A stretch of DNA of 57,884 nucleotides from Leptospirales bacterium. Lineage in GTDB: Bacteria > Spirochaetota > Leptospiria > Leptospirales > Leptospiraceae. Of this stretch, positions 39,876-51,011 are shown piece after piece (position 1 is the stretch's first letter; every line of letters begins with the position of its first letter). The notes under the pieces are model-generated. The model was not told the DNA's origin, made no database searches, and saw only the letters and a program-made list of their open reading frames with translations. The DNA is taken from assembly GCA_013297885.1 (NCBI GenBank), contig JAAFIR010000033.1, forward strand, positions 1 to 57,884, in the 5' to 3' direction. The translations under genes were made by a program, and so were the position numbers.

Positions 39876-40841
39876 ATGGAAATTCTTTCCTCAAAATACT
39901 TTTTAATTTTTCTTTTTCTGCAATTTATTTTTACTGGTTTTTTTATCAATACTCTCAATAAGTTATTATTTAATAAGAACATTGAATTAAGTTTAAACCA
40001 ATGTATTTTTTTATTACCGTTTTTTACTTTTATAGGACGAAAATTTAAACTCAAAACAAATCTTCCAAAAGGCTACGATATAGTTTCAGTAGAAATTGAA
40101 AGTTTTATTTTTATTTTAAATCCAATTTATCTTTTAATTGGAAGAGTTCATTTTTCATTTGTTAGCTTAAAAAATCCCTCAATGAATTATTTAAATTTTG
40201 TTTCTTCTATGAAAAAAATAAAATATCTTCCAAAAATTTCTCAAGTAATAATTAAAAGACTTTTTGTAAAAAATGGATTCATGGATATCGAAGATAGATC
40301 AGTTTTTCCAATTTATAAAGTCAAAATAGAGAAGTTAATTCTTAAAAGGTCACTTATAGATTTTGCAATCCCTTTTAAAGTTCTTTTCAATTCCAAACTT
40401 GCATACTGTAGAATAGGTTCAGGTTATGTAAAAAGTTCCGAGAAAAAAAACACTGGACGACTTGATGTCAAAGGTCTCACTTGGGGTGAAATCATTAGTT
40501 TGCAGGGATTGCCTTTATGGTTTTTAAATAATCATTTGAATCTGCATCTTAATTTTGTAAATTTTAACAAAGAATCTCATTTCACAGGTGCAATTAATTT
40601 TGAAAAACTAAAAGATGAAACTGGTGAAATTTTTGAGAGAAAAAAAAAGATAGAATTTTCTTATAGAGTTAATTGGAGAGAGTATCGCTTACCTTTTGAT
40701 CTTGCTTTAAAAAAATCAGTTTCTGCTTTACTTGTTGGATTAAACTATGTTGGTGTATTGAGTTTTGGAATTAGAATTGTAATCAGCACAATAAACAATT
40801 TATTACTAAATATTGAAACTCAAAAACCAGAAGAAAGTTGA
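39876..40841 (+). CDS. Hypothetical membrane protein, possibly AsmA-like
   Basis: 321 residues. An N-terminal hydrophobic segment (FLIFLFLQFIFTGFFINTL) is followed by a long beta-rich body with Gly and hydrophobic alternation (FSFVSLKNPSMNYLNF, GRLDVKGLTWGEIISLQGLP) and another hydrophobic region near the end (SALLVGLNYVGVLSFGIRIVIS). The beta-rich repetitive body with one anchor is reminiscent of AsmA-family bridge-like lipid transport proteins, but it is short and no signature is certain. It is divergent from the glycan operon, so it may belong to the same envelope pathway. Confidence 0.55.
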   Translation: MEILSSKYFLIFLFLQFIFTGFFINTLNKLLFNKNIELSLNQCIFLLPFFTFIGRKFKLKTNLPKGYDIVSVEIESFIFILNPIYLLIGRVHFSFVSLKNPSMNYLNFVSSMKKIKYLPKISQVIIKRLFVKNGFMDIEDRSVFPIYKVKIEKLILKRSLIDFAIPFKVLFNSKLAYCRIGSGYVKSSEKKNTGRLDVKGLTWGEIISLQGLPLWFLNNHLNLHLNFVNFNKESHFTGAINFEKLKDETGEIFERKKKIEFSYRVNWREYRLPFDLALKKSVSALLVGLNYVGVLSFGIRIVISTINNLLLNIETQKPEES

Positions 40842-40960
40842 TTTTGAAAGAAAGACTTTTAAACTAAAACAAATTCAAAAATAAAAAACTCTTGATAAAA
40901 ACGGGGGGCGGGTGAAATTATTAGTAAATACATATAAATAAACAACAACATGGTGATAAA

Positions 40961-41692
40961 ATGAAAATAAAATTTCAAATACACTACAAATTCAAAAATT
41001 CAATATCTATATTGATCTTTTTAATGAGCATCAATTTATTCTCACAAGAAATTGAAGTCAAAACTGAAACTCTGTCTGATTCAAAAAATCAGGCTGAAAG
41101 AAGAGTGGAAAGAAAATTCCAAATAGGAATCTTCAGTCCAAGTGTTAGAGTCTCTTTGCCTACAACAATTTTTTTATTTTTTTCTATAAATAAAAAAATT
41201 ACTTTCAATTCAAATTTTTCAAGCTACACAAAAAATGAGAGCAATTTATTACCTTTTAGTAGTTCCTATTTTGTTAAAGATGTTCACACTACTAATTCTA
41301 GATACTTCGATTTTGGTTTCAAATATTTTCCCTTTGAATCATTTCCTTTATATTTTGGATTAATAGCAGGAAAAGAATTCAGTAATGAAAAATTTGAAAA
41401 TTTAGTGATATCTAATAGCATCTACCCTGAGCTTAATAATACTAGATACAGAAAAATCGAATATCAACCAAGTAAATTTAGTGCTGTTTCAATTGGGTTT
41501 AATTGGCAATTTATGAGTGGAGTAGTTTTGAATTTTAACTATAATTATGTTTTTATTATAGAAACAAAAAGACAAATTACTTATTTATTTGATAAATCTT
41601 GGTCAGTTGCTGATTTGTATGAATTAGAAACTAATAGAAGAACTCAATTACTTCAACAACCCTTTACCTTCTCAATCGGTTATGCGTTTTAA
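40961..41692 (+). CDS. Outer-membrane beta-barrel protein
   Basis: 243 residues. A signal peptide ends near NLFSQ-EIEV (about residue 29). The rest shows alternating hydrophobic strands with many aromatic residues at strand ends (FDFGFKYFPF, GFNWQFMSGVVLNFNYNYVFII). The chain ends in FTFSIGYAF, with the terminal Phe that the BAM machinery recognises in outer-membrane barrels; about eight strands are likely. No porin or TonB signature is visible. A GC-rich patch (40902-40915) lies between a TTGATA box and the start. The convergent Uma2 remnant overlaps its stop. Confidence 0.65.
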   Translation: MKIKFQIHYKFKNSISILIFLMSINLFSQEIEVKTETLSDSKNQAERRVERKFQIGIFSPSVRVSLPTTIFLFFSINKKITFNSNFSSYTKNESNLLPFSSSYFVKDVHTTNSRYFDFGFKYFPFESFPLYFGLIAGKEFSNEKFENLVISNSIYPELNNTRYRKIEYQPSKFSAVSIGFNWQFMSGVVLNFNYNYVFIIETKRQITYLFDKSWSVADLYELETNRRTQLLQQPFTFSIGYAF

Positions 41693-41990
41693 ATTTCTAC
41701 CTTTTGATAGACTTCATTTAAATTTAAAGTGAATTCAATTGAAGGAATAAATATTTTTTGATTTTGGTCTGGGTCAGTTAATGTCCAAGAATTTTCAGGG
41801 TTTTTGGAGTAAACTTCAATTTGTTTATATTCATTTGAAACTAAAATATAAGTATTTAATGAAGGAATTGTTCTGTATGATTGGAATTTTTTACTTCTAT
41901 CGTGTTTTTCTGTTGAATCAGATAAAACTTCAAAAATTAAAAAAAATTATTTCTAAAACTGTTATCGCCAAAGTTTTTATTACTTAGATT
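41689..41990 (-). pseudogene. Uma2-family endonuclease remnant
   Basis: A minus-strand fragment carrying the C-terminal half of an Uma2 (DUF820) domain: LIFEVLSDSTEKHDRSKKF, then SYRTIPSLNTYILVSNEYKQIEVY and LTDPDQNQKIFIPSIEF to a TAA at 41689. Upstream the reading shifts frame near 41940 (GDNSFRNNFF then stop), and the N-terminal half is missing. It is therefore a truncated and frameshifted remnant of a PD-(D/E)XK nuclease-fold family that is often multicopy. Confidence 0.75.
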
Positions 41991-42072
41991 CTTGATTTGA
42001 GTTTTACATTGCTTCAGATTCCCCTTTTGAAAGAGGAATCATTAAGAAGGAGAAATTTTAAAGCTAAATGAA

Positions 42073-43185
42073 TTATGCAGCTAATAATTCATTCAATGAA
42101 AGTTTGTCTGCAGCAAGTCCATTTTCAAATTTTAAAATCCCCAGAGCTTCATATTTTGGTTTAATTCTATCACTTAATAATCCAATTGCTTTTAAGTTTG
42201 GAATTAATCTTGAAAATAGTGATTTTCTAAATTCAGACATGATATCTGATTCAAGAACCATTTTAATCCAATTTTCTTCAGATATTTTATGTGCAAAATA
42301 CTCTTCACGTAATTCTTTAAACATGAATCTATTTCTTAACATAATGCTAACTTCATAAGCCCAATCTTCTCTATCTCTTCTAACAGACTCTGAACATTCT
42401 TTAGTGTAATAATCTCTTAAAGCTTCCACACCATAATGAACATGTCTAGACTCATCTGAAATTACTTGTTTGAGTAATTGTTTGAGTAAAGGCTCTTTTG
42501 TAAATTTGTACATTAATCCAAAAGCTCCAAGTGCTAAACCTTCGATCATGATTTGCATTCCTAAAAATTTTAAATCCCAATCACCTGCTGAAGTTAAAGC
42601 ATGAATCACTACAAATAAATTGTCATTGATATGGTAAAGTTTTCCTAATTTATCATTTAGGTACTTTGCAAATACTTCCACATGACGAGCTTCATCCATT
42701 ACTTGAGTTGAGCCATAATACTTTGCACCCATCCAAGGAGTTGCTTCAACTGTCATAGCTGCTGCATATAAAGCACCTTGTTCCCCATGTAGGAATTGTG
42801 AAAGTAACCATGCAGTAGTAGAATGTAACATTTGACCTTTCATATTTTTATCCATCAATCTATACATATCTGTTCCATACATTGGTTGGAGTTTTTCTGG
42901 AAAGATTTCTAATTCAAAATTATGTGGATCGACTGAAGTGTTCCAAGGTAAATCATTCGCATCCCATTGTCCTTTTTTTGCTTTGTCGTAAAGGTTTTGG
43001 AATTCTTGGTTTCCAAATTGGCTATATTTCCAATCATAATGAATCGCATGAGAGGACTTAATATCGATTTGATTTTTTTTACTTTCTTGCAAAAAATATC
43101 CTGATACTGCTGAAGGTAATAAATCCCAAGCCACTTTCACGTTTCTGGATGCCATGTCTGTAATGTCTAAAATTGATGCACTCAT
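42073..43185 (-). CDS. Ferritin-like diiron protein
   Basis: 370 residues. Four helices give a complete six-residue diiron set: Glu in HGEQGALY, E-x-x-H in MDEARHVEVF, Glu in MIEGLALGAF, and E-x-x-H in SDESRHVHYG. The arrangement resembles the ribonucleotide-reductase-small-subunit-like / AurF group of oxygenases and uncharacterised ferritin-like proteins. It probably oxidises an organic substrate using O2. No signal peptide. It is preceded 37 bases upstream by a TetR gene on the same strand, suggesting control by a small ligand, perhaps a fatty acyl or aromatic compound (inference only). Confidence 0.8.
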   Translation of the reverse strand: MSASILDITDMASRNVKVAWDLLPSAVSGYFLQESKKNQIDIKSSHAIHYDWKYSQFGNQEFQNLYDKAKKGQWDANDLPWNTSVDPHNFELEIFPEKLQPMYGTDMYRLMDKNMKGQMLHSTTAWLLSQFLHGEQGALYAAAMTVEATPWMGAKYYGSTQVMDEARHVEVFAKYLNDKLGKLYHINDNLFVVIHALTSAGDWDLKFLGMQIMIEGLALGAFGLMYKFTKEPLLKQLLKQVISDESRHVHYGVEALRDYYTKECSESVRRDREDWAYEVSIMLRNRFMFKELREEYFAHKISEENWIKMVLESDIMSEFRKSLFSRLIPNLKAIGLLSDRIKPKYEALGILKFENGLAADKLSLNELLAA

Positions 43186-43222
43186 ATTTGTCCTCTTTTA
43201 ATAGTTAATCGTTTAACATTCA

Positions 43223-43798
43223 TTATGCGACTTTAAGGATTTGATTTAAAAAAGTACTAATCAATGTTCTGATTAATAAAATTTGATCATCTCTATCAAC
43301 ACTATTTGGAACCATAACTGATTGCATAATTAATCCAAGTGAAAAAGTTAAAATCGCTGAGCTGGCTACCGTGTCACCAAGCCCAATCAATTCACCAATT
43401 GACTTTCGATAATAATCAGCAATTTCCTGAATGATATTTTCAGGGTCGTTTGATCCATTTTGTCTATAATAGTCAATTACCAAAAAAAGAACATTTTGAA
43501 AAAACTCTTCATTTGAATTTAAATATTGAAAAAGAATTTCAACTCTTTCTTCAATACTTTTAGTTCTCTTAAATCTATCATTCAAAATCAAAACTTGTTT
43601 TCTGGAAATTTGAAAAATCATGCTTTTAAAAATACTTTCTTTATTTGGAAAATAATGGTAAAGAGTTCCTGTAGAAATTTCCAAAGATTTGGAGATTTCA
43701 CGCATGGTAGCTCCTGCAAAACCATTTCTAGCAAATAACTCGAAGCATTTGTCTAACAAAACTTCTCTGTATTCATCATGATCTACTATTTTAGGCAA
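43223..43798 (-). CDS. TetR-family transcriptional regulator
   Basis: 191 residues. The N-terminal helix-turn-helix (about 10-55) has FELFARNGFAGATMREISKSLEISTGTLYHYFPNKESIF, characteristic of TetR/AcrR. The C-terminal ligand domain (about 60-191) is helical and unclassified. It is first in a two-gene unit with the diiron protein. Upstream of its start CGAATGTTCG (near 43818-43827) has CGAA/TTCG half-sites and could be part of an operator; this is weak. Repression of its own operon is expected from the family. Confidence 0.88.
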   Translation of the reverse strand: MPKIVDHDEYREVLLDKCFELFARNGFAGATMREISKSLEISTGTLYHYFPNKESIFKSMIFQISRKQVLILNDRFKRTKSIEERVEILFQYLNSNEEFFQNVLFLVIDYYRQNGSNDPENIIQEIADYYRKSIGELIGLGDTVASSAILTFSLGLIMQSVMVPNSVDRDDQILLIRTLISTFLNQILKVA

Positions 43799-44433
43799 TT
43801 TCTAATCCTTTTTTATAACGAATGTTCGATATAATAAACTCAGATTTATTTAAAATGTCAACAAAAAAATTTATTAAAAGTGAATTTTTTTATTTTTTTT
43901 TATCAGAATAGATGCAAAGTTATATAAAATCATTTTTATTTTATTTAAAATGAAAGATTTTATTTCTAAACTAAATAAAAACTCTGATAGAATTGTATGA
44001 ATTAAAATTATACAAATTTCTTTAACAATAAAGAGAAGTGAATCAAAACGAAAATATTTTTGACGTTTTAGAAATTTTTAATAAATTTTTTTTAAATAGA
44101 ATAAATTATAAAACTTTTTTTTCTCCATCAAAAAGAAATTATTTTATTTATAAAAAAAGTTCAAAACATTTCTCAAAACTTCAATTAATAAGACATAGTT
44201 ATAACTTATGTCACTTAAATGTTGCTAACTATGTCACTTAAATGTTTATAAGACATAATAATTGACATAATAAAAAATACTTTTTTTTCTAATGTCAATT
44301 GTACAATTTTATAAAAAGTTATTTTCAAATTTCAAGTGACATATTTTCTAACTAAACAAGCCTCTTTTTGGCTTAGTTACTTTTGTACACTTTAAATAAT
44401 AATAAAAATATAATTAATATATAAGGATAGGAA
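43799..44433. other. AT-rich repeat region upstream of dnaN, origin candidate
   Basis: 635 bases without a convincing gene. TATGTCACTTAAATGTT occurs exactly twice (44207-44223 and 44230-44246), 23 bases apart. The inverted form GTGACATA is at 44336-44343, AGACATA occurs twice (44191, 44251), and TTGACAT (44262-44268) and ATGTCAA (44292-44298) form an inverted pair. An imperfect hairpin with AAGCC/GGCTT arms lies near 44356-44374. No consensus DnaA box was found. It may be an origin part, a regulator site for dnaN, or both. Confidence 0.45.
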
Positions 44434-45558
44434 ATGAAATTTATTATAAACAGTCAAGAATTCCAAAAAGCTATTTCTGCAGTTGAAGGTGTAATTACAG
44501 TTAGAGAAGTTAGATCCATTTTATCAAATATAAAAATTGAGTCTTCTGGTGATAAAGTTTATTTATCTGCAACTGATTTAGAAATTTCGATTAAACACTC
44601 AGTTCCAGCTCAAATCGAAGAAGAAGGAAATACATTGATTCCTGCAAAACAATTGAGTAATACTTTCAAAACTGTTAATTTTCAAAAAGCATTTATTCAA
44701 ACCGATCCAGATAAAGATGGAACAAATTCAAAAACTTTAATTACTGATGCAGAAAAAAAAGAATCTTATGAAATGTTTATAAACGGAATTGAAAATGATG
44801 ATATCAGAACAATCGCAAATGTGAAAAATACAGATGTAGTTGATTTTCCTTGTATCATTCTTTCTGAAATGATAAAAAAAACTAATTATGCTGTTGCTGT
44901 TGATGATACACGTTTTGTATTTAATGGTAATTATCTTATTGCAAGTGAAGGCAAAATTATCATGGTTGGGACAGATGGTAGAAGGCTTTCAAAAATTGAA
45001 CGCACCATTCCAAATTCTTTACCTTTTACTAAAGGCGTTATTATTCCTCATAAAGCTATTAAAGAAATTTTAAAAATGATTGATTCATCAGAAACTGGGA
45101 AAATCGGAATCATTGATAACCAAATTTATATTCATATTGGTAATACTGAATTACTTTGCAAATTAATTGATGGAAATTATCCTGATTACGAAGCAGTAAT
45201 TCCAAAAGATATGAAAAGTAAAGCTATCATAAACAAAGAATTGTTTCTGTTAAAAGTAAGACAAGCTTTAGTTTCTGCTGAAGAACCTTCACGACAAATT
45301 AAATTAGAATTTTCAAAAAATAATCTTCAAATTTCTGCCTCTACTCAAGGTTCACAAGAAGCTCATATTAGTCTTGCAATTGATTATGAAGGAGATGATT
45401 TAGTAATAGCTTTCAAAGGGGATTATTTAGTTGATGTTGCAAAAGCAATTGATGACCAAGAACTTCATTTTCATTTTTCTACATCAAATTCTCCAGTGAT
45501 TGTAAAAGATCCTTCAGATTCTCAATATACAGCTGTAATTATGCCAATGAAAATTTAA
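44434..45558 (+). CDS. dnaN: DNA polymerase III sliding clamp, beta subunit
   Basis: 374 residues, three clamp domains of about 120 residues each. Recognisable are the opening MKFIINSQEFQKAISAVEGVI, the LEISIKHSVPA and TDGRRLSKIE landmarks and the C-terminal YTAVIMPMKI, which matches the family's MPMRL ending. The ring holds polymerase on DNA. AAGGATAGG precedes the ATG. Its stop overlaps the recF start by one base (TAATG). In most bacteria, including known Leptospira, dnaA is directly upstream; here it is replaced by the repeat region and a divergent TetR gene. Confidence 0.97.
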   Translation: MKFIINSQEFQKAISAVEGVITVREVRSILSNIKIESSGDKVYLSATDLEISIKHSVPAQIEEEGNTLIPAKQLSNTFKTVNFQKAFIQTDPDKDGTNSKTLITDAEKKESYEMFINGIENDDIRTIANVKNTDVVDFPCIILSEMIKKTNYAVAVDDTRFVFNGNYLIASEGKIIMVGTDGRRLSKIERTIPNSLPFTKGVIIPHKAIKEILKMIDSSETGKIGIIDNQIYIHIGNTELLCKLIDGNYPDYEAVIPKDMKSKAIINKELFLLKVRQALVSAEEPSRQIKLEFSKNNLQISASTQGSQEAHISLAIDYEGDDLVIAFKGDYLVDVAKAIDDQELHFHFSTSNSPVIVKDPSDSQYTAVIMPMKI

Positions 45559-46670
45559 TGTTTATAAAAAAGCTCAAACTTCTAAATTTTCGGTCATATC
45601 AAAATCTAGAACTTGAGTTTGGTTCCAAGCTCATTTTTTTTATTGGCGAAAATGGTTCTGGTAAAACAAATATTTTAGAATCTATTAATCAATTTGCAAC
45701 TCTAAAAAGTTTCCGTGATAATCCAGAAGAAGAATTAATTAATTGGAAAGAAAATTTTTTTTATATAAAACTTGATTTTGTTAAAGAAAATTTTGATAAT
45801 AAAATCGAAATTGGATATTCTAAAGAAGACTCTTCAAAAAGAAAAGTAAAACTAAATCAAAACCAAGTCAAAAAAAAACAAGAAATTGTTGGTGAATTAA
45901 AAACAGTAATATTTTCACCGAATGATTTAAGTATTTTAGATGGAGGTCCTGCTGAAAGAAGAAGATTTATTGACACTTTCATATCTATTCAAAGCAAAAA
46001 TTACTATAGTCAGATTTCAGAGTATAATAAAATATTAAAACAAAGAAACTTTTTGTTAAAAAAAAAGAACATTGATCAAAAGGAATTTTCTCCTTGGAAT
46101 AAACTCTTAAAAGACAGAGCAGAAATAGTTTTTGAATTTAGAAAAGATTATATTCTTAGAATTAATGAAATTTTCAAAAAAGACTTATTTAAACTTAGTA
46201 ACGGAAAAGATCAGTTTGAAATTATTTATAAACCTGATTTTCAAAGTTATTCTGAATATGAAGAAATATTAAAATCCAAATTAGCAAAAGACATTCAACT
46301 AGGGTATACTTCTGTGGGTATTCATAGAGATCAAATTTTTATTGGAACTAATGGAAAAGATATTACTGAGTTTGGTTCACAAGGTCAAAAAAGAAGCACA
46401 GTGATATCTTTAAAAACTTCACAATTCCATATAATCAAATCTGAATCAAACTTATCACCAATATTATTAATTGATGATGTGATTCGTGAACTAGATGTAA
46501 AAAGAAGAGAATTATTCATAGAACTAATCAAAGAAGCAGGACAAACTTTTTTCACTACTACTGACTTAGAGGGAATTAAGGATTATCTAGGTAGTTTAGA
46601 AAATGAAAAAGAAATCTTTGAAGTAAAAGACTTTTCAGTAAAAAAACTTTCATCTATTTTAGTTATTTAA
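45558..46670 (+). CDS. recF: DNA repair protein RecF
   Basis: 370 residues, an SMC-like ATPase. N-terminal LLNFRSYQNLELEF and Walker A FIGENGSGKTNILE (about 29-42), the RecF-typical DGGPAERRRFIDTFIS segment, the signature FGSQGQKRS (near 273) and Walker B PILLIDDVIRELD (near 305). It loads RecA at gapped DNA with RecO and RecR. It is coupled to dnaN by TAATG and directly joined to the DUF721 gene. The length is normal for the family. Confidence 0.96.
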   Translation: MFIKKLKLLNFRSYQNLELEFGSKLIFFIGENGSGKTNILESINQFATLKSFRDNPEEELINWKENFFYIKLDFVKENFDNKIEIGYSKEDSSKRKVKLNQNQVKKKQEIVGELKTVIFSPNDLSILDGGPAERRRFIDTFISIQSKNYYSQISEYNKILKQRNFLLKKKNIDQKEFSPWNKLLKDRAEIVFEFRKDYILRINEIFKKDLFKLSNGKDQFEIIYKPDFQSYSEYEEILKSKLAKDIQLGYTSVGIHRDQIFIGTNGKDITEFGSQGQKRSTVISLKTSQFHIIKSESNLSPILLIDDVIRELDVKRRELFIELIKEAGQTFFTTTDLEGIKDYLGSLENEKEIFEVKDFSVKKLSSILVI

Positions 46671-47120
46671 ATGGAAAACATTGATAAAAAACTCTTTACA
46701 ATTTCTGAAATAGATTTTTCAAAATTAATCAAAAATATATTAGAAGTGGATTTAATAAATGAAGCCGAGTATTTAAAAATTCAAAACAATTGGCTAGAAA
46801 TTGTGGGACCTTTTTATTTTGACTATTCACATCCATTAAAAATAGAAAAAAAAATATTGTATGTTTTAGTTTTAAATCCAGCAATTAAAATGGAGATTTT
46901 ATTTTTAAAAGATGTAATCTTAAAAAATTTAAACAAATATAAACTTCAAACTGAGTTTAAAAAATTAAATTTTGTTTTTGGAAAAATTCCTATAAGAAAA
47001 AATAAGTTAGAAAAGAAAAAAGAAAACTTAGAAGGTAAATCTGAACTTCTAGGTTTAGTTTCTAAAATAGAAGATAAGAGTTTTCAGAAGAAAATGTTTG
47101 AACTTTTAAAAGTGATTTAA
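46671..47120 (+). CDS. DUF721 protein
   Basis: 149 residues with the DUF721 core: NNWLEIVGPFYFDYSHPLKIEKKILYVLVLNPAIKMEILFL (about 42-83), then an LNKYKLQTEFKKLNFVFGKI strand-helix, and a charged C-terminus. The gene starts with no gap after the recF stop. DUF721 proteins, some linked to DciA-type helicase loading, regularly lie between recF and gyrB; the link to DciA is known for part of the family and is likely but not shown here. gyrB does not follow. Confidence 0.82.
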   Translation: MENIDKKLFTISEIDFSKLIKNILEVDLINEAEYLKIQNNWLEIVGPFYFDYSHPLKIEKKILYVLVLNPAIKMEILFLKDVILKNLNKYKLQTEFKKLNFVFGKIPIRKNKLEKKKENLEGKSELLGLVSKIEDKSFQKKMFELLKVI

Positions 47121-47260
47121 AAGAATTAGGCAATTTTTTTTGTGACAATAAATTGTTATGCAAAAAAAAGCTTATTCTTTTGAATTCCTCTTAAAAACTT
47201 GCTTTCTGCTTCTATCGAAAAATAGCACAAGTTTAGATTTTACTATTTAAAATTTGTTAC

Positions 47261-48019
47261 CTATTCTGATTTGCTATTTTGGGTGGTAGTTCCACCGTAA
47301 TTAAAATAATGCGTTTTAGTTGGTAACCAATTATCATCTTGTTTCACGTGAAACGAAATCGACACCAATTTAGAATTTTCATCATATGCAAATACTTGTT
47401 GTTTTTTTGTATTAGGTTGGTGGTTTTCTCTTTTTTCAATTTTGCCATCTTTGTCTAAAAAAGTTTTAATCAAAGCTACTTGTTTTAATTTATCATCAAA
47501 AATTTCTTGATTCAAAATGTTCGGTTGTAAATTTTCCTTTCTAGTTGAAAAAGTTTCAACAGTGTTTGCTTCTTCCCATCTCGTCTCACAATCAATCACC
47601 ATTTCTTTATTCATTGAAAAGATTCTATGTTTGATTTTTTTTCCACTAGAAATAGAAGTTACTTCAATTTCTTTTAAAATTTCTTTTTGGTTATAAAAAA
47701 ATTGTTTTTTTTCAATAATCTCTTTTACAGGTGAGTAAAGTTCTTCTAAAATTAATCTATCATTTTCATAAGTATAAATAATTTCTCCGTCAAACTCTGA
47801 TTTTGAATTAGAAAATTTTTCTTTTATCAATTTTCCATTTGGATTGTATTCATAACTTGCTGAGTATAAAACTTGACCTGATTTATTTTTAACAATTTCA
47901 GAAATGGGTCCGTTTTTTTCTTTTCCAATTGTAAATTTATCCAAGTAGGACCATTTACCTGGTGTAAAAGCATTTAGTTGTATAATAATTAAAAATAGGA
48001 ATAGTTTCATTAGTTTCAA
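47261..48019 (-). CDS. Secreted hypothetical protein with YD-like repeats
   Basis: 252 residues. The signal peptide (MKLMKLFLFLIIIQLNAF) is followed by strand-rich repeats such as YSASYEYNPNGKLIKEKF, YTYENDRLILEELY and FAYDENSKLVSISFHV, which resemble the YD/RHS-like repeats of bacterial surface proteins, in low copy. It is a Leptospira-like exported protein of unknown role. A parS-like palindrome lies inside its 3' coding part. It is convergent with dnaN-recF-DUF721. Confidence 0.6.
   Translation of the reverse strand: MKLMKLFLFLIIIQLNAFTPGKWSYLDKFTIGKEKNGPISEIVKNKSGQVLYSASYEYNPNGKLIKEKFSNSKSEFDGEIIYTYENDRLILEELYSPVKEIIEKKQFFYNQKEILKEIEVTSISSGKKIKHRIFSMNKEMVIDCETRWEEANTVETFSTRKENLQPNILNQEIFDDKLKQVALIKTFLDKDGKIEKRENHQPNTKKQQVFAYDENSKLVSISFHVKQDDNWLPTKTHYFNYGGTTTQNSKSE
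47340..47355. promoter_or_regulatory. parS site (ParB binding)
   Basis: TGTTTCACGTGAAACG matches the 16-base bacterial parS consensus TGTTTCACGTGAAACA at 15 of 16 positions; the central palindrome GTTTCACGTGAAAC is exact. parS sites cluster near the replication origin and load ParB for chromosome segregation. The site is in codons of the secreted protein gene, as often seen, about 2 kb from recF. A chance occurrence of a 14-base GC-containing palindrome in such AT-rich DNA is very unlikely. Confidence 0.85.
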
Positions 48020-48115
48020 TATCGACTTTATAAAGAATTTTTTAATAGTTAGAAACTTAATTTTAAAGATAATTTAATTGGTGGTAATTTATAATTTTCC
48101 TTTTTGAATTAAAAT

Positions 48116-48577
48116 TCAGGTTTTGTCCAGTGGAAGTTTTGTGGTTAAATAATTAAGTTCATTCAAATAAACCAAATAAAGTTCATATTTTAGCCCATTT
48201 ATTGTTTCTGGCGTAGTGTATGTAAATTCTAAAGAAGAAGAGTATTCATTTTCTTTTGGAGCGGTAATAGTATTTTTTGATACTAAAAATTTATTTGGTT
48301 CTGAGGGTAGTGGATTTCTATTTTCAATAAAATTTTTTCGAAATTTGAACTCTTTATTCCATCTTTTATCATTTGAATAAATTTTTAATACTAAAGTACG
48401 ATGTAAATCTCCTGTTGGGAAATTATGTCCTATTCCAATAGTAATTAACTTGATATTAACTTCTTAATCAGAAATTTTAACAATTTCAACTTTTTTACAG
48501 ATTTCTCTAAAAGTGATTTGTTGTGTCCCCCAGAAAATTCATTTGATTCAGCTGAGTAAGCTTTCAATATTTTACTT
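48116..48577 (-). pseudogene. Cytochrome-c-like protein C-terminal remnant
   Basis: The minus-strand reading contains NEFSGGHNKSLLEKSV, shifts frame near 48500 and meets a TAA near 48468. It continues as NIKLITIGIGHNFPTGDLHR and LVLKIYSNDKRWNKEF to LPLDKT and TGA at 48116. GGH...GHNFPTG is characteristic of the non-heme C-terminal domain of multiheme cytochrome c proteins. The CxxCH heme-binding part is missing, cut off at the junction with the SH3-domain remnant. It is a 5'-truncated, doubly damaged gene. Confidence 0.65.
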
Positions 48578-49445
48578 TTGTTTTTATGTAAAGAAAAAGT
48601 CAATCTAGGATCAAAGGAATCAAAAATAAAAGTTATTGGAGTTGTTACATCAAATGGTATGTTAGCTTTTCAAGAACCTAGATTCACTTCATTGCCAAGC
48701 AGAATTCCACTAAATAAAGAACTTGAAGTGTTAAATAATAAATTCCCAGATCCAAAAATTCCAAAAGCTTTTTGGTATGAAGTTATGTTAGAAGGAAAAA
48801 AACTTTATATTAAAGATGATGATGTTCATAAAGATATTAAATTTCAAACTTTTGATGTTTTAGAAAATACTAGATTTGGATTTGTAAAATCTAGTTCAGT
48901 AAGATTAAGAGAAGCACAAAGCCTGAATTCAAAAATTTTAGAAAATATATTAAAAGAAACTGAAGTTCAAATTTTAAGAACAGGAAGTCAGATGAATGAA
49001 ATAGAAAACAAATTATCACATTGGTTTTATGTTCAATTAAATGATGGTAAAAGAGGATATGTTTTTGGTGAATACATTCAAGATGGAACTGTTTAAGCGA
49101 ATAAAAAATATAGTGAAGTTAAGTTTAGTTGATATAGATAACGATGGGATTCCAGAATTAAAATAAAATGAAGGTGGGAGAGGAACTGAGTCAATTGAAA
49201 TTTTTCAATTTGAAAAAAATCAATTTAATTTAGTTTTTAGCATTCCAAATACTAATGGAGTTTATACAAAAAATATTAACAAAAATTATCTTGAATATTA
49301 CTCTGAAACTAAAATCGAATCTCCTAATATTTTAGTTTATGAACGTGAAAGTGGTAAAGATAAAACTGAAAACAAAATTGTTCAGGCTTACATAGTAGAA
49401 AATTCTAAAATTAAATCTATTCCTTTGAATAAAGTTAAGTTATAA
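48578..49445 (+). pseudogene. SH3-domain lipoprotein, truncated and frameshifted
   Basis: The first frame (TTG 48578 to 49096, 172 residues) has a clipped lipoprotein signal (ILLLFLC reads upstream to an in-frame stop). Two SH3-like domains follow: IGVVTSNGMLAFQEPRF (about 20-80) and FVKSSSVRLREAQSLNSKIL through GYVFGEYI (about 100-168). After a frame change near 49096 the reading continues as VDIDNDGIPELK, a TAA, then TESIEIFQFEKNQFNL to NKVKL and TAA 49445. It was probably a secreted SH3 protein, broken at both ends. Confidence 0.6.
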
Positions 49446-49562
49446 GATTTAAAATCCTCGATTTGAATTTTTTTATTAAATCCCTCTGAAATGAAGTGGT
49501 TTAAACTTATGGTAAAAATTTTTAAGTGGATTTATTGTTATCAAAAGAGATTTTTAAATTCT

Positions 49563-49670
49563 AGCGAAAAAAGATCGACTCGGTGTCAAAATTTTTTGAA
49601 TAAAAAATTTTGACAAGAGAGGAGAGCTTGTTTTTTGCAGCCATCTTTTCGGCGAAGCAAAAATTCGCCC
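49563..49670 (+). repeat. Two-hairpin intergenic element, copy G
   Basis: Plus-strand copy. The left end AGCGAAAAAAGATCGACTCGG is followed by hairpin I (TGTCAAAATTTTTTG with matching CAAAATTTTGACA-type arm). The linker AGAGAGGAGAGCTTG follows. A short hairpin II (TTTTTTGC/GCAAAAA around a small GCC/GGC inner stem) and the right end ATTCGCCC complete it. It lies between the SH3 remnant and the convergent flippase-like gene. It is the most compact of the complete copies. Confidence 0.82.
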
Positions 49671-49681
49671 TGACTCTATGA

Positions 49682-50665
49682 CTAATTTAATTCTTGTTGT
49701 TTATTTTTTTTAAAACCATGTCTTCTACGGTATGTCCAATAGAGATAAAAAATCAAACCGGTAAAAGTAACTATGAAAAAAGAACTCATATGAAGTGCTG
49801 TTGCATAAATTAATCCCATTGCAGAATCTTTTTTTAGAACAAGAAATCCTGAAATAATTGCTCCGTGAAAAACACCAACTCCAGATGGTGCAGAAGGTAG
49901 AGCTAAACTCATCGCACCACAAAATAAAAAGAATACACATTCAACAAAGCTAATATCTAAACCAAGAGTTTTTCCTATTAAATAGTAATTCGTAAAATAG
50001 AAAATCCAAGATCCTGCAGTTAAAATTAACAAGCGAATAAATTTTTTAAACTTCAGAAAAGATTCTAAATCTGTGATATGTGACTCAATATGGTTTTTAT
50101 AAAATTCTTCTTTTTTTAAGTAAGAAAAAAGTTTTGAAAGAATTTTTTTAATTAACTCATTTTGAAATCTCAGTAAATATAAACTAAATAACATTCCAAA
50201 TAAAATAGAAGAAGAAATGATATAAACTGATAAATTGGAATGATCTCCTTTTATAAAGTTAATAATAAAAAAAGATGCCATTCCCATAACTACAACAAAA
50301 ATAAAATCAATAACTTTTTCTATAAATAACTTTGATAATAAATTAAAGTAGGCAACTGATGTTTCATTTCTACAATAAAATACTCTGAATAAATCCCCAC
50401 CTCTTGCAGGTAAAATCATATTAGCAGCATAACCTATAAATGTTGAAGAAATGGCATGTTTAAATAAAATTTTACTCTCAAGTAATGAGCGCCAACGATA
50501 TGAAAAAATAATGAGTCCCATTAATTGAGAAAAAATAATTAAAACTATATAGTCATAAGAAATATTAGCTGAAATTTTATGAAACTCTGCTACAAAATCA
50601 ATTTTATATAAAATGAATCCAATAAAGATTCCTGAAATGATTAAACCTAGTAAAATTTTTTTCAT
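49682..50665 (-). CDS. Flippase-like integral membrane protein (UPF0104/LPG-synthase TM family)
   Basis: About 327 residues from ATG 50665, which lies one base after the HIT stop; the longer reading into the HIT gene is not preferred. Eight or so membrane helices, with family landmarks YRWRSLLESK, NMILPARGGDLFRVFYCR and the conserved ALPSAPSGVGVFHGAIISGF. The family covers the membrane half of MprF-type lysyl-phosphatidylglycerol synthases and glycan/lipid flippases. No synthase domain is attached. Lipid or lipid-linked sugar handling in the inner membrane is likely. It is last in the operon. Confidence 0.85.
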   Translation of the reverse strand: MKKILLGLIISGIFIGFILYKIDFVAEFHKISANISYDYIVLIIFSQLMGLIIFSYRWRSLLESKILFKHAISSTFIGYAANMILPARGGDLFRVFYCRNETSVAYFNLLSKLFIEKVIDFIFVVVMGMASFFIINFIKGDHSNLSVYIISSSILFGMLFSLYLLRFQNELIKKILSKLFSYLKKEEFYKNHIESHITDLESFLKFKKFIRLLILTAGSWIFYFTNYYLIGKTLGLDISFVECVFFLFCGAMSLALPSAPSGVGVFHGAIISGFLVLKKDSAMGLIYATALHMSSFFIVTFTGLIFYLYWTYRRRHGFKKNKQQELN

Positions 50666-50666
50666 A

Positions 50667-51011
50667 TTATCCTGGTGGCCAATTAAATTCTCTTCCTGCA
50701 AGTAAATGAAAATGAATATGAAACACTGTTTGACCAGCATCTTTACCCATATTATTTACAATCCGATACCCATTTTTTTCTAAACTTTGACTTCTTGCAA
50801 ATTCAGAAATTTCTATCATCAACTTTCCAATTATTTTTTCATCATCAATAGAAAGTTTATCTAATGACTCAATATGTTTTTTGGGAATAAATAAAATATG
50901 AGTTGGAGCTGTTGGACTAATGTCTGGAAAAGCGATAGAATTTTCAGATTCAAAAAGAATTTTTGCAGGAATTATTTTTTTTACAATTTTACAAAAAATA
51001 CAATCAATCAT
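50667..51011 (-). CDS. HIT-family nucleotide hydrolase (HinT-like)
   Basis: 114 residues from ATG 51011 (AAGGTG just upstream; a start at 51023 is possible). DCIFCKIVKKIIPAKILFES opens the protein, and the histidine triad is VFHIHFHLLAG. Such proteins hydrolyse nucleoside phosphoramidates and related adenylates as dimers. The Cys pair in CIFC is the common family feature in this branch, often metal-binding. The start overlaps the end of the ROK gene by 8 bases, so the two are coupled. Confidence 0.9.
   Translation of the reverse strand: MIDCIFCKIVKKIIPAKILFESENSIAFPDISPTAPTHILFIPKKHIESLDKLSIDDEKIIGKLMIEISEFARSQSLEKNGYRIVNNMGKDAGQTVFHIHFHLLAGREFNWPPG

Follow-up and report, generated by a model that had tools for sequence, protein, structure and literature searches.

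CtrA of Caulobacter crescentus is a cell-cycle regulator that binds oriC and whose regulon spans replication, division and flagella. Its site is TTAA-N7-TTAA.

DnaA of Escherichia coli reads TTA with Arg399 and TnCACA with a helix, and DnaA-trios follow the consensus TA(A/G) (PMC5742627). The rules given for origins with a basal unwinding system (BUS) call for a DnaA-box, a spacer of up to 16 bp and at least three trios (PMC8287927). The oriC of Thermotoga maritima has a lineage-specific DnaA box, ACCTACCAC (PMC10316083), and Borrelia DnaA may read unique sequences (PMC9879097). The CI origin of Leptospira biflexa adjoins dnaA, dnaN, recF and gyrAB (PMC2229662). The hem-box of the Leptospira regulator HemR is TGACA-N6-TGACA, with heme genes as the targets named in the source (PMC11426443). 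Published work that looked for motifs around transcription starts of L. interrogans reports conserved sigma-54 elements and, in the part of that paper drawn on here, no other promoter motif (PMC5243855). In full-text literature, which covers few subscription papers, neither the motif described below nor a CtrA-like circuit in Leptospira was found among the titles and abstract openings of the matches listed.

We analyzed a stretch of 57,884 bp (the window), the whole of contig G000:C56 from the 4.6 Mb, 72-contig genome of an apparently Leptospira-related spirochaete. This placement relies on hits to the LIC11435, LenA/B and Loa22 families, each of which scored under its curated cut-off; DnaN comparisons with named organisms gave 24 Bacteroidetes loci at 23-28% and plasmid records, the best listed at 28.9%. 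Repeats with a GACATA core lie in front of its dnaN gene. The likeness to CtrA consists of sites at a putative origin together with sites at replication, division and flagellar genes, as in a global regulon; the site sequence is unrelated to that of CtrA, and the lineage is another. CtrA boxes are absent from 43799-44433, and the window has 11 of them where 20 are expected. A box-like element (TTTTGTACA), a short spacer (7 bp) and a run resembling TAA trios (TAATAATAA) stand just before dnaN and may correspond to a BUS oriC; the box has three mismatches to TTATCCACA, and GACATA, rather than a DnaA box, is the main repeat. T. maritima offers a precedent for a changed box, and its DnaA also has a turn one residue shorter, but its box is unlike GACATA and its reader is DnaA. 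The hem-box shares the letters TGACA with the repeats and comes from the same wider lineage; 43799-44433 holds no match to TGACA-N6-TGACA within one mismatch.

Repeats in front of dnaN and their conservation

A preliminary description of the window had noted an exact repeat 23 bases apart, inverted and further GACATA forms within 160 bases, and a dnaN-recF pair with dnaA missing from its usual place. All of this holds. The genome has exactly two copies of the 17-mer TATGTCACTTAAATGTT, both before dnaN; they occupy 44207-44223 and 44230-44246, with an offset of 23 bp. Within 43799-44433 the repeats are confined to 44188-44345, where seven GACAT/ATGTC cores stand in mixed orientation at irregular spacing (Table 1); an eighth core, at 43855, is isolated from this cluster. 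The one dnaA copy found in the genome lies on another contig (G000:C24:26528-27826, minus strand). On the other side, a TetR-type gene starts about 390 bp from the repeats. It is adjoined by an AurF-like oxygenase gene (42073-43185), and both are divergent from dnaN. An Rfam scan of the window gave no match.

The same description called the repeats iteron-like, a term that is not supported in the plasmid sense. They occur in both orientations at irregular spacing, not as regular direct repeats, and the scan of flanking genes from 39876 to 50740 gave no Rep match, with three of those genes lacking a match to any family.

Table 1. Features of the dnaN region (window coordinates)
Feature	Position	Strand	Core at	Basis
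TetR-type regulator gene, divergent from dnaN	43223..43798	-		PF00440
Site 1, GACAT core	44188..44199	+	44192	
Site 2, inside first TATGTCACTTAAATGTT, inverted pair with site 1	44205..44216	-	44208	
Site 3, inside second TATGTCACTTAAATGTT	44228..44239	-	44231	
Site 4, within TTATAAGACATAATA	44248..44259	+	44252	
Site 5, TTGACATAAT	44260..44271	+	44264	
Site 6, TAATGTCAATT, weaker	44289..44300	-	44292	
AGTTATTTTC block	44317..44326	+		
Site 7, GTGACATATT	44334..44345	+	44338	
Degenerate DnaA-box-like TTTTGTACA	44381..44389	+		Alignment A1, aligned with TTATTTACA of G001, G002, G005, G007
DnaA-trio-like run TAATAATAA before dnaN	44397..44405	+		Sequence; TA(A/G) trio consensus
dnaN	44434..45558	+		NCBIfam TIGR00663, E 7e-80
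recF	45558..46670	+		NCBIfam TIGR00611, E 6e-100
dciA	46671..47120	+		PF05258, E 2e-10

Repeats can arise by chance in AT-rich DNA, and the stretch before dnaN is only 20% GC. Matches to a loose three-core pattern number five genome-wide, two at the dnaN block and three elsewhere; its reversed control has four, so this pattern alone is not rare. Chance nevertheless merits almost no credence. The 260 bp that precede dnaN hold GACATA six times (both strands), where 300 dinucleotide shuffles give 0.14, and a chance origin is refuted by the conservation of the block in five genera.

We sampled eight genomes of the window's family (f1), seven of which have a readable dnaN start; in the other, G003, the contig ends inside dnaN. 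Conservation of the repeats in relatives, suggested as a check in the preliminary description, is borne out in all seven. Their dnaN upstreams share ATAAGACATA, then AGTTATTTTC and GACATATT, then a dnaN-proximal box-like stretch, and ATAAGACATA, which falls at site 4, is invariant in the alignment (A1). The pattern AGTTATTTTCN{4,16}GACATATT is found once per genome in seven of the eight, always before dnaN (the eighth is G003), and its reversed control has no match in these eight genomes. GACATA counts before dnaN are six in G000, four each in G001, G002 and G005, three in G006 and G007 and two in G004, where 0.10-0.23 are expected in each. An unbiased 6-mer ranking recovers GACATA in 7/7 upstreams (0.88 expected), with some rare GC-rich 6-mers common to two or three genomes ranking above it. 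The repeats are real, conserved and functional-looking.

The block is also present at the dnaA-dnaN junction of G004 and G006, which retain dnaA directly upstream of dnaN. G000, G001, G002, G005 and G007 have no dnaA in the roughly 1.5 kb read upstream of dnaN and carry it on another contig; dnaA and dnaN are on different contigs in G003 as well.

Evidence for an origin at dnaN

GC skew supports oriC at dnaN for the family. The skew of G004 changes sign within 2 kb of dnaN, which starts at 488,482. Over the stretches read, in bins of 2 or 4 kb, third-codon-position skew is negative in every bin from 444 to 490 kb and positive in every bin from 490 to 530 kb; farther from dnaN the sign varies and other changes are present. 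The shift across the site is less sharp in G006 (-0.068 to +0.055) and G005 (-0.073 to +0.117), and skew at dnaN is uninformative in G001 and G002. For G014, of the sister family f2, 19 stretches were read and place the sign change near 3.57 Mb; dnaN, at 3.59 Mb, is no more than about 20 kb away, and a second dnaA lies at 2.45 Mb. In the window's own genome the skew check proposed in the preliminary description gave no support: third-position skew is -0.038 to the left of dnaN and -0.067 to the right, with no change of sign. Because the skew shows no change there, we only infer oriC at dnaN for this genome.

Another account is that the sites serve only as an operator, either for dnaN-recF or for the divergent TetR gene, and that replication starts elsewhere here. 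It accommodates the lack of a sign change around dnaN in the window's skew and the departure of dnaA, and sites at other promoters do behave as operators (see below). We consider it improbable, because G004 has its change of skew sign at this very place, G006 and G005 have a weaker one there, and that of G014 is within about 20 kb of dnaN. The trio-like run adjoins dnaN, and the gene on the far side of the block is dnaA, not TetR, in G004 and G006.

A wider motif at promoters

The GACAT core is part of a wider motif, WTGNGACATAAT. None of the seven window sites matches it exactly; scored with a matrix built without G000, site 4 is the top match in 156 kb of that genome (16.9 bits). Across the order, 20 of 30 genomes have 10-71 copies, and the reversed control has 0-6. 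Counts of motif and control in f1 are 71/1 for G004, 24/0 for G006, 19/6 for G005, 5/5 for G007 and 8/2 for G000, and in the rest of the window's genus 9/17 (G001), 9/16 (G002) and 9/22 (G003). All 18 f2 genomes outside genus g6 have 7-48 copies against 0-2, and g6 itself has 4/5 (G008), 3/0 (G009), 2/0 (G010) and 3/3 (G020). There is little or no excess in the window's genus (G000-G003), G007 and g6. A stricter pattern, AWKRAGACATAAT, gives 11/2 for G004, 8/1 for G006, 12/9 for G005 and 2/1 for G007, and 2/6, 4/13, 5/11 and 3/6 for G000 to G003.

In the class outside the order, all 12 genomes are enriched (19-323 copies against 1-5), as drawn from 149 genomes sampled across the phylum. Most other families of the phylum are not enriched, and f12, f31 and f41 are so in part. 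The highest class-level counts per genome are 323 (G035), 160 (G039) and 108 (G033). Families f23, f35 and f39, beyond the class, also show enrichment (e.g. 34/2, 28/1 and 22/4).

The sites are mostly intergenic. This holds for 45 of 49 sites in G011 and G019 (20 of the 21 G011 sites and 29 of the 32 G019 sites were covered), where the background, taken from G014, is 16% (p ~5e-31), and more weakly for 6 of 11 sites in 400 kb of G004 (p 0.009). Orientation to the gene is mixed (same/opposite/both: 6/5/8 in G011 and 12/9/5 in G019), so WTGNGACATAAT is not a promoter hexamer, and the mixture argues against a sigma-factor promoter element. Nor is it a dispersed repeat, since the flanks are unconserved beyond a few bases.

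Target genes were compared at the sites read in seven genomes: 8 of 8 in G000, 20 of 21 in G011, 29 of 32 in G019, 10 of 24 in G006, 8 distinct of 71 in G004, 8 of 19 in G005 and 1 of 9 in G001. Loci in G001, G004, G005 and G006 were picked with the stricter AWKRAGACATAAT pattern, and the comparison is confined to loci with the 12-mer, outside G002, G003 and G007. Two downstream families are shared by five genomes: degT (G001, G004, G006, G011, G019) and a coiled-coil gene (G000, G004, G005, G011, G019), which has a methyltransferase-like gene divergent from it in four. An FtsQ-type POTRA gene is a target in four (G000, G004, G011, G019) and fliN in two (G000, G006), with a near-match at fliN in G004. 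Genes for lpxC, FliP, FlhF-like, HTH_36, helicase-like and GTPase-family proteins are targets in two genomes each, and many further targets were seen in just a single genome. Confirmed by Pfam are FtsQ-type POTRA, FliN, FliG, CarD, HTH_36, DegT, FliP and LpxC; the FlhF-like, helicase-like, GTPase-family and methyltransferase-like names were read from sequence. On a 52-kb contig of G006 (C44), perhaps a second replicon, sites lie beside ParA-like and HTH-like genes, also named from sequence.

The motif also occurs at dnaA. Family f2 has two dnaA-like genes in 14 of 22 genomes, one in seven and none in one; type a adjoins dnaN and type b lies elsewhere. In the stretch searched at type-b loci (about 0.5 to 1.1 kb, varying by locus), GACATA/TATGTC stands upstream of or around the start in 14/15, as GACATAAT in 13; at a few the site is downstream of the first possible start codon, and the true start is uncertain. 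The sites at dnaA form inverted pairs in G008 and G009. Of 12 class-level dnaA loci, 10 carry the site upstream, between -76 and -146 relative to the first possible start, and eight of these ten are GACATAAT; a thirteenth locus (G034) has no readable dnaA ORF. Within f1, four of eight dnaA promoters carry the motif (G004, G005, G006, G007), with 0/4 in the window's genus. None of five outgroups has it. In place of the missing GACATA site, a palindrome, TATTARTAYATTNNAATGTACTAATAT, stands before dnaA in each of the four members of the window's genus.

Before dnaN, GACATA is found in 11/15 of the f2 genomes whose type-a gene is linked to dnaN, in 0/5 f2 genomes with type b only and in 0/3 class-level genomes.

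The preliminary description had proposed an origin with an unusual initiator site or a dnaN operator. Part of this stands, as the block is conserved at dnaN in the family and the skew changes sign in G004. The window's own genome shows no skew change. The motif is also found order- and class-wide at other promoters (dnaA, ftsQ, flagellar genes), an association that fits a regulator's operator better than an initiator's box.

DnaA or a separate regulator

A tree of 39 DnaA proteins (midpoint-rooted, with two very long type-a rows) separates f1 (100/100), type a (99/95) and type b (100/100). The DNA-binding domain of the window genome's DnaA is diverged. At the domain IV loop position that we take to align with Arg399 (E. 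coli numbering), an acidic residue is present and a basic one absent in 8/8 f1 and 11/11 type-a proteins, and type b has K or R in 12/14 and Q in two. Two features set f1 apart from types a and b: the turn that leads into the reading helix has one residue fewer, and the aspartate is missing. The turn is also shorter in T. maritima and the distant G049.

The main rival to a separate regulator is that the GACATA sites are the lineage's own DnaA boxes. A diverged domain IV would read ATTATGTCNCAW, which resembles TTATnCACA lengthened by one base; the cluster would be a platform for DnaA assembly, and the scattered sites a DnaA regulon that includes dnaA autoregulation. The resemblance of ATTATGTCNCAW to TTATnCACA keeps this account alive. 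Several sites stand before dnaN in 7/7 f1 genomes, and the sites follow the relocated dnaA in G005 and G007. An origin with a cluster of canonical TTATNCACA boxes does not fit the window, which has no exact copy in its 57,884 bp (3.1 expected), and WWWTNCACA is absent from the last 300 bp before dnaN in 7/7 f1 genomes. The lack of the basic loop residue in f1 and type a, the shorter f1 turn and the absence of GACATA before dnaN in b-only genomes also favor DnaA as the reader, and T. maritima, with a similar turn, has a different box too (PMC10316083).

We regard this account as unlikely on balance. The motif is identical in f1 and f2 although the reading helix of DnaA has changed between them, and b-only genomes keep GACATAAT at dnaA-b (e.g. 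G008, G009 and G012). The dnaN-proximal DnaA-box position, by contrast, did change: 11 of 14 f2 genomes with type a have a canonical-like WWWTNCACA box 59-87 bp before dnaN, mostly beside GACATAAT, and four of seven f1 genomes have TTATTTACA there. On these three grounds we favor a separate regulator over DnaA. Up to 323 sites per genome are also difficult to reconcile with DnaA boxes, and the type-a/type-b contrast is phylogenetically thin, as only two b-only genera have a dnaN upstream that can be read. A narrower version, in which only type-a DnaA would use GACATA as its box, is weakened by the presence of GACATA at 14/15 type-b loci and by the small number of b-only genera behind the contrast. 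The idea of TTCACA as a type-b counterpart was not supported at dnaA-b promoters (1/8 checked).

We therefore lean, at somewhat better than an even chance, towards the sites before dnaN being operators of a separate, class-wide regulator, multiplied at oriC/dnaN in this family, a prediction made from sequence comparison. Several observations count against a regulator. The window's genus and G007 have little or no WTGNGACATAAT excess, the motif is at 0/4 of the genus's dnaA promoters, and no window site is an exact copy. Intergenic placement is weaker in G004 (6 of 11), and skew does not change at dnaN in the window's genome. GACATA is missing before dnaN in 4/15 f2 genomes with a linked type-a gene, 5/5 b-only genomes and 3/3 class-level genomes. 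The L. interrogans start-site search, in the part of the paper drawn on, has no such motif (PMC5243855).

With a separate regulator, the stretch would be the oriC/dnaN control region. On the dnaN side, the degenerate box and trios would be where DnaA opens the DNA. Upstream, the seven GACAT(A)-core sites would be operators of the putative DNA-binding protein, whose full site is about WTGNGACATAAT. Its usual targets would be the promoters of genes such as dnaA, ftsQ and those for flagella, in most cases with one or two sites each. Because its sites appear to have been multiplied at the origin in this family, the regulator probably gates DnaA assembly, dnaN transcription or both, like CtrA of Caulobacter. 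A bolder proposal, to which we give rather less than an even chance, is that a master regulator reading WTGNGACATAAT ties together initiation (dnaA, oriC), division (ftsQ) and flagellar assembly, as an independently evolved CtrA-like circuit with its sites amplified at the origin of one family.

Few promoter and operator signals have been described for these spirochaetes. A site that stands at the majority of class dnaA loci examined, at ftsQ and at flagellar genes, and that is clustered at a putative origin, offers a handle on the control of replication and the cell cycle. The motif could serve as DNA bait for fishing out its protein, and its copies would be docking sites for a putative protein through which replication and the cell cycle may be coupled.
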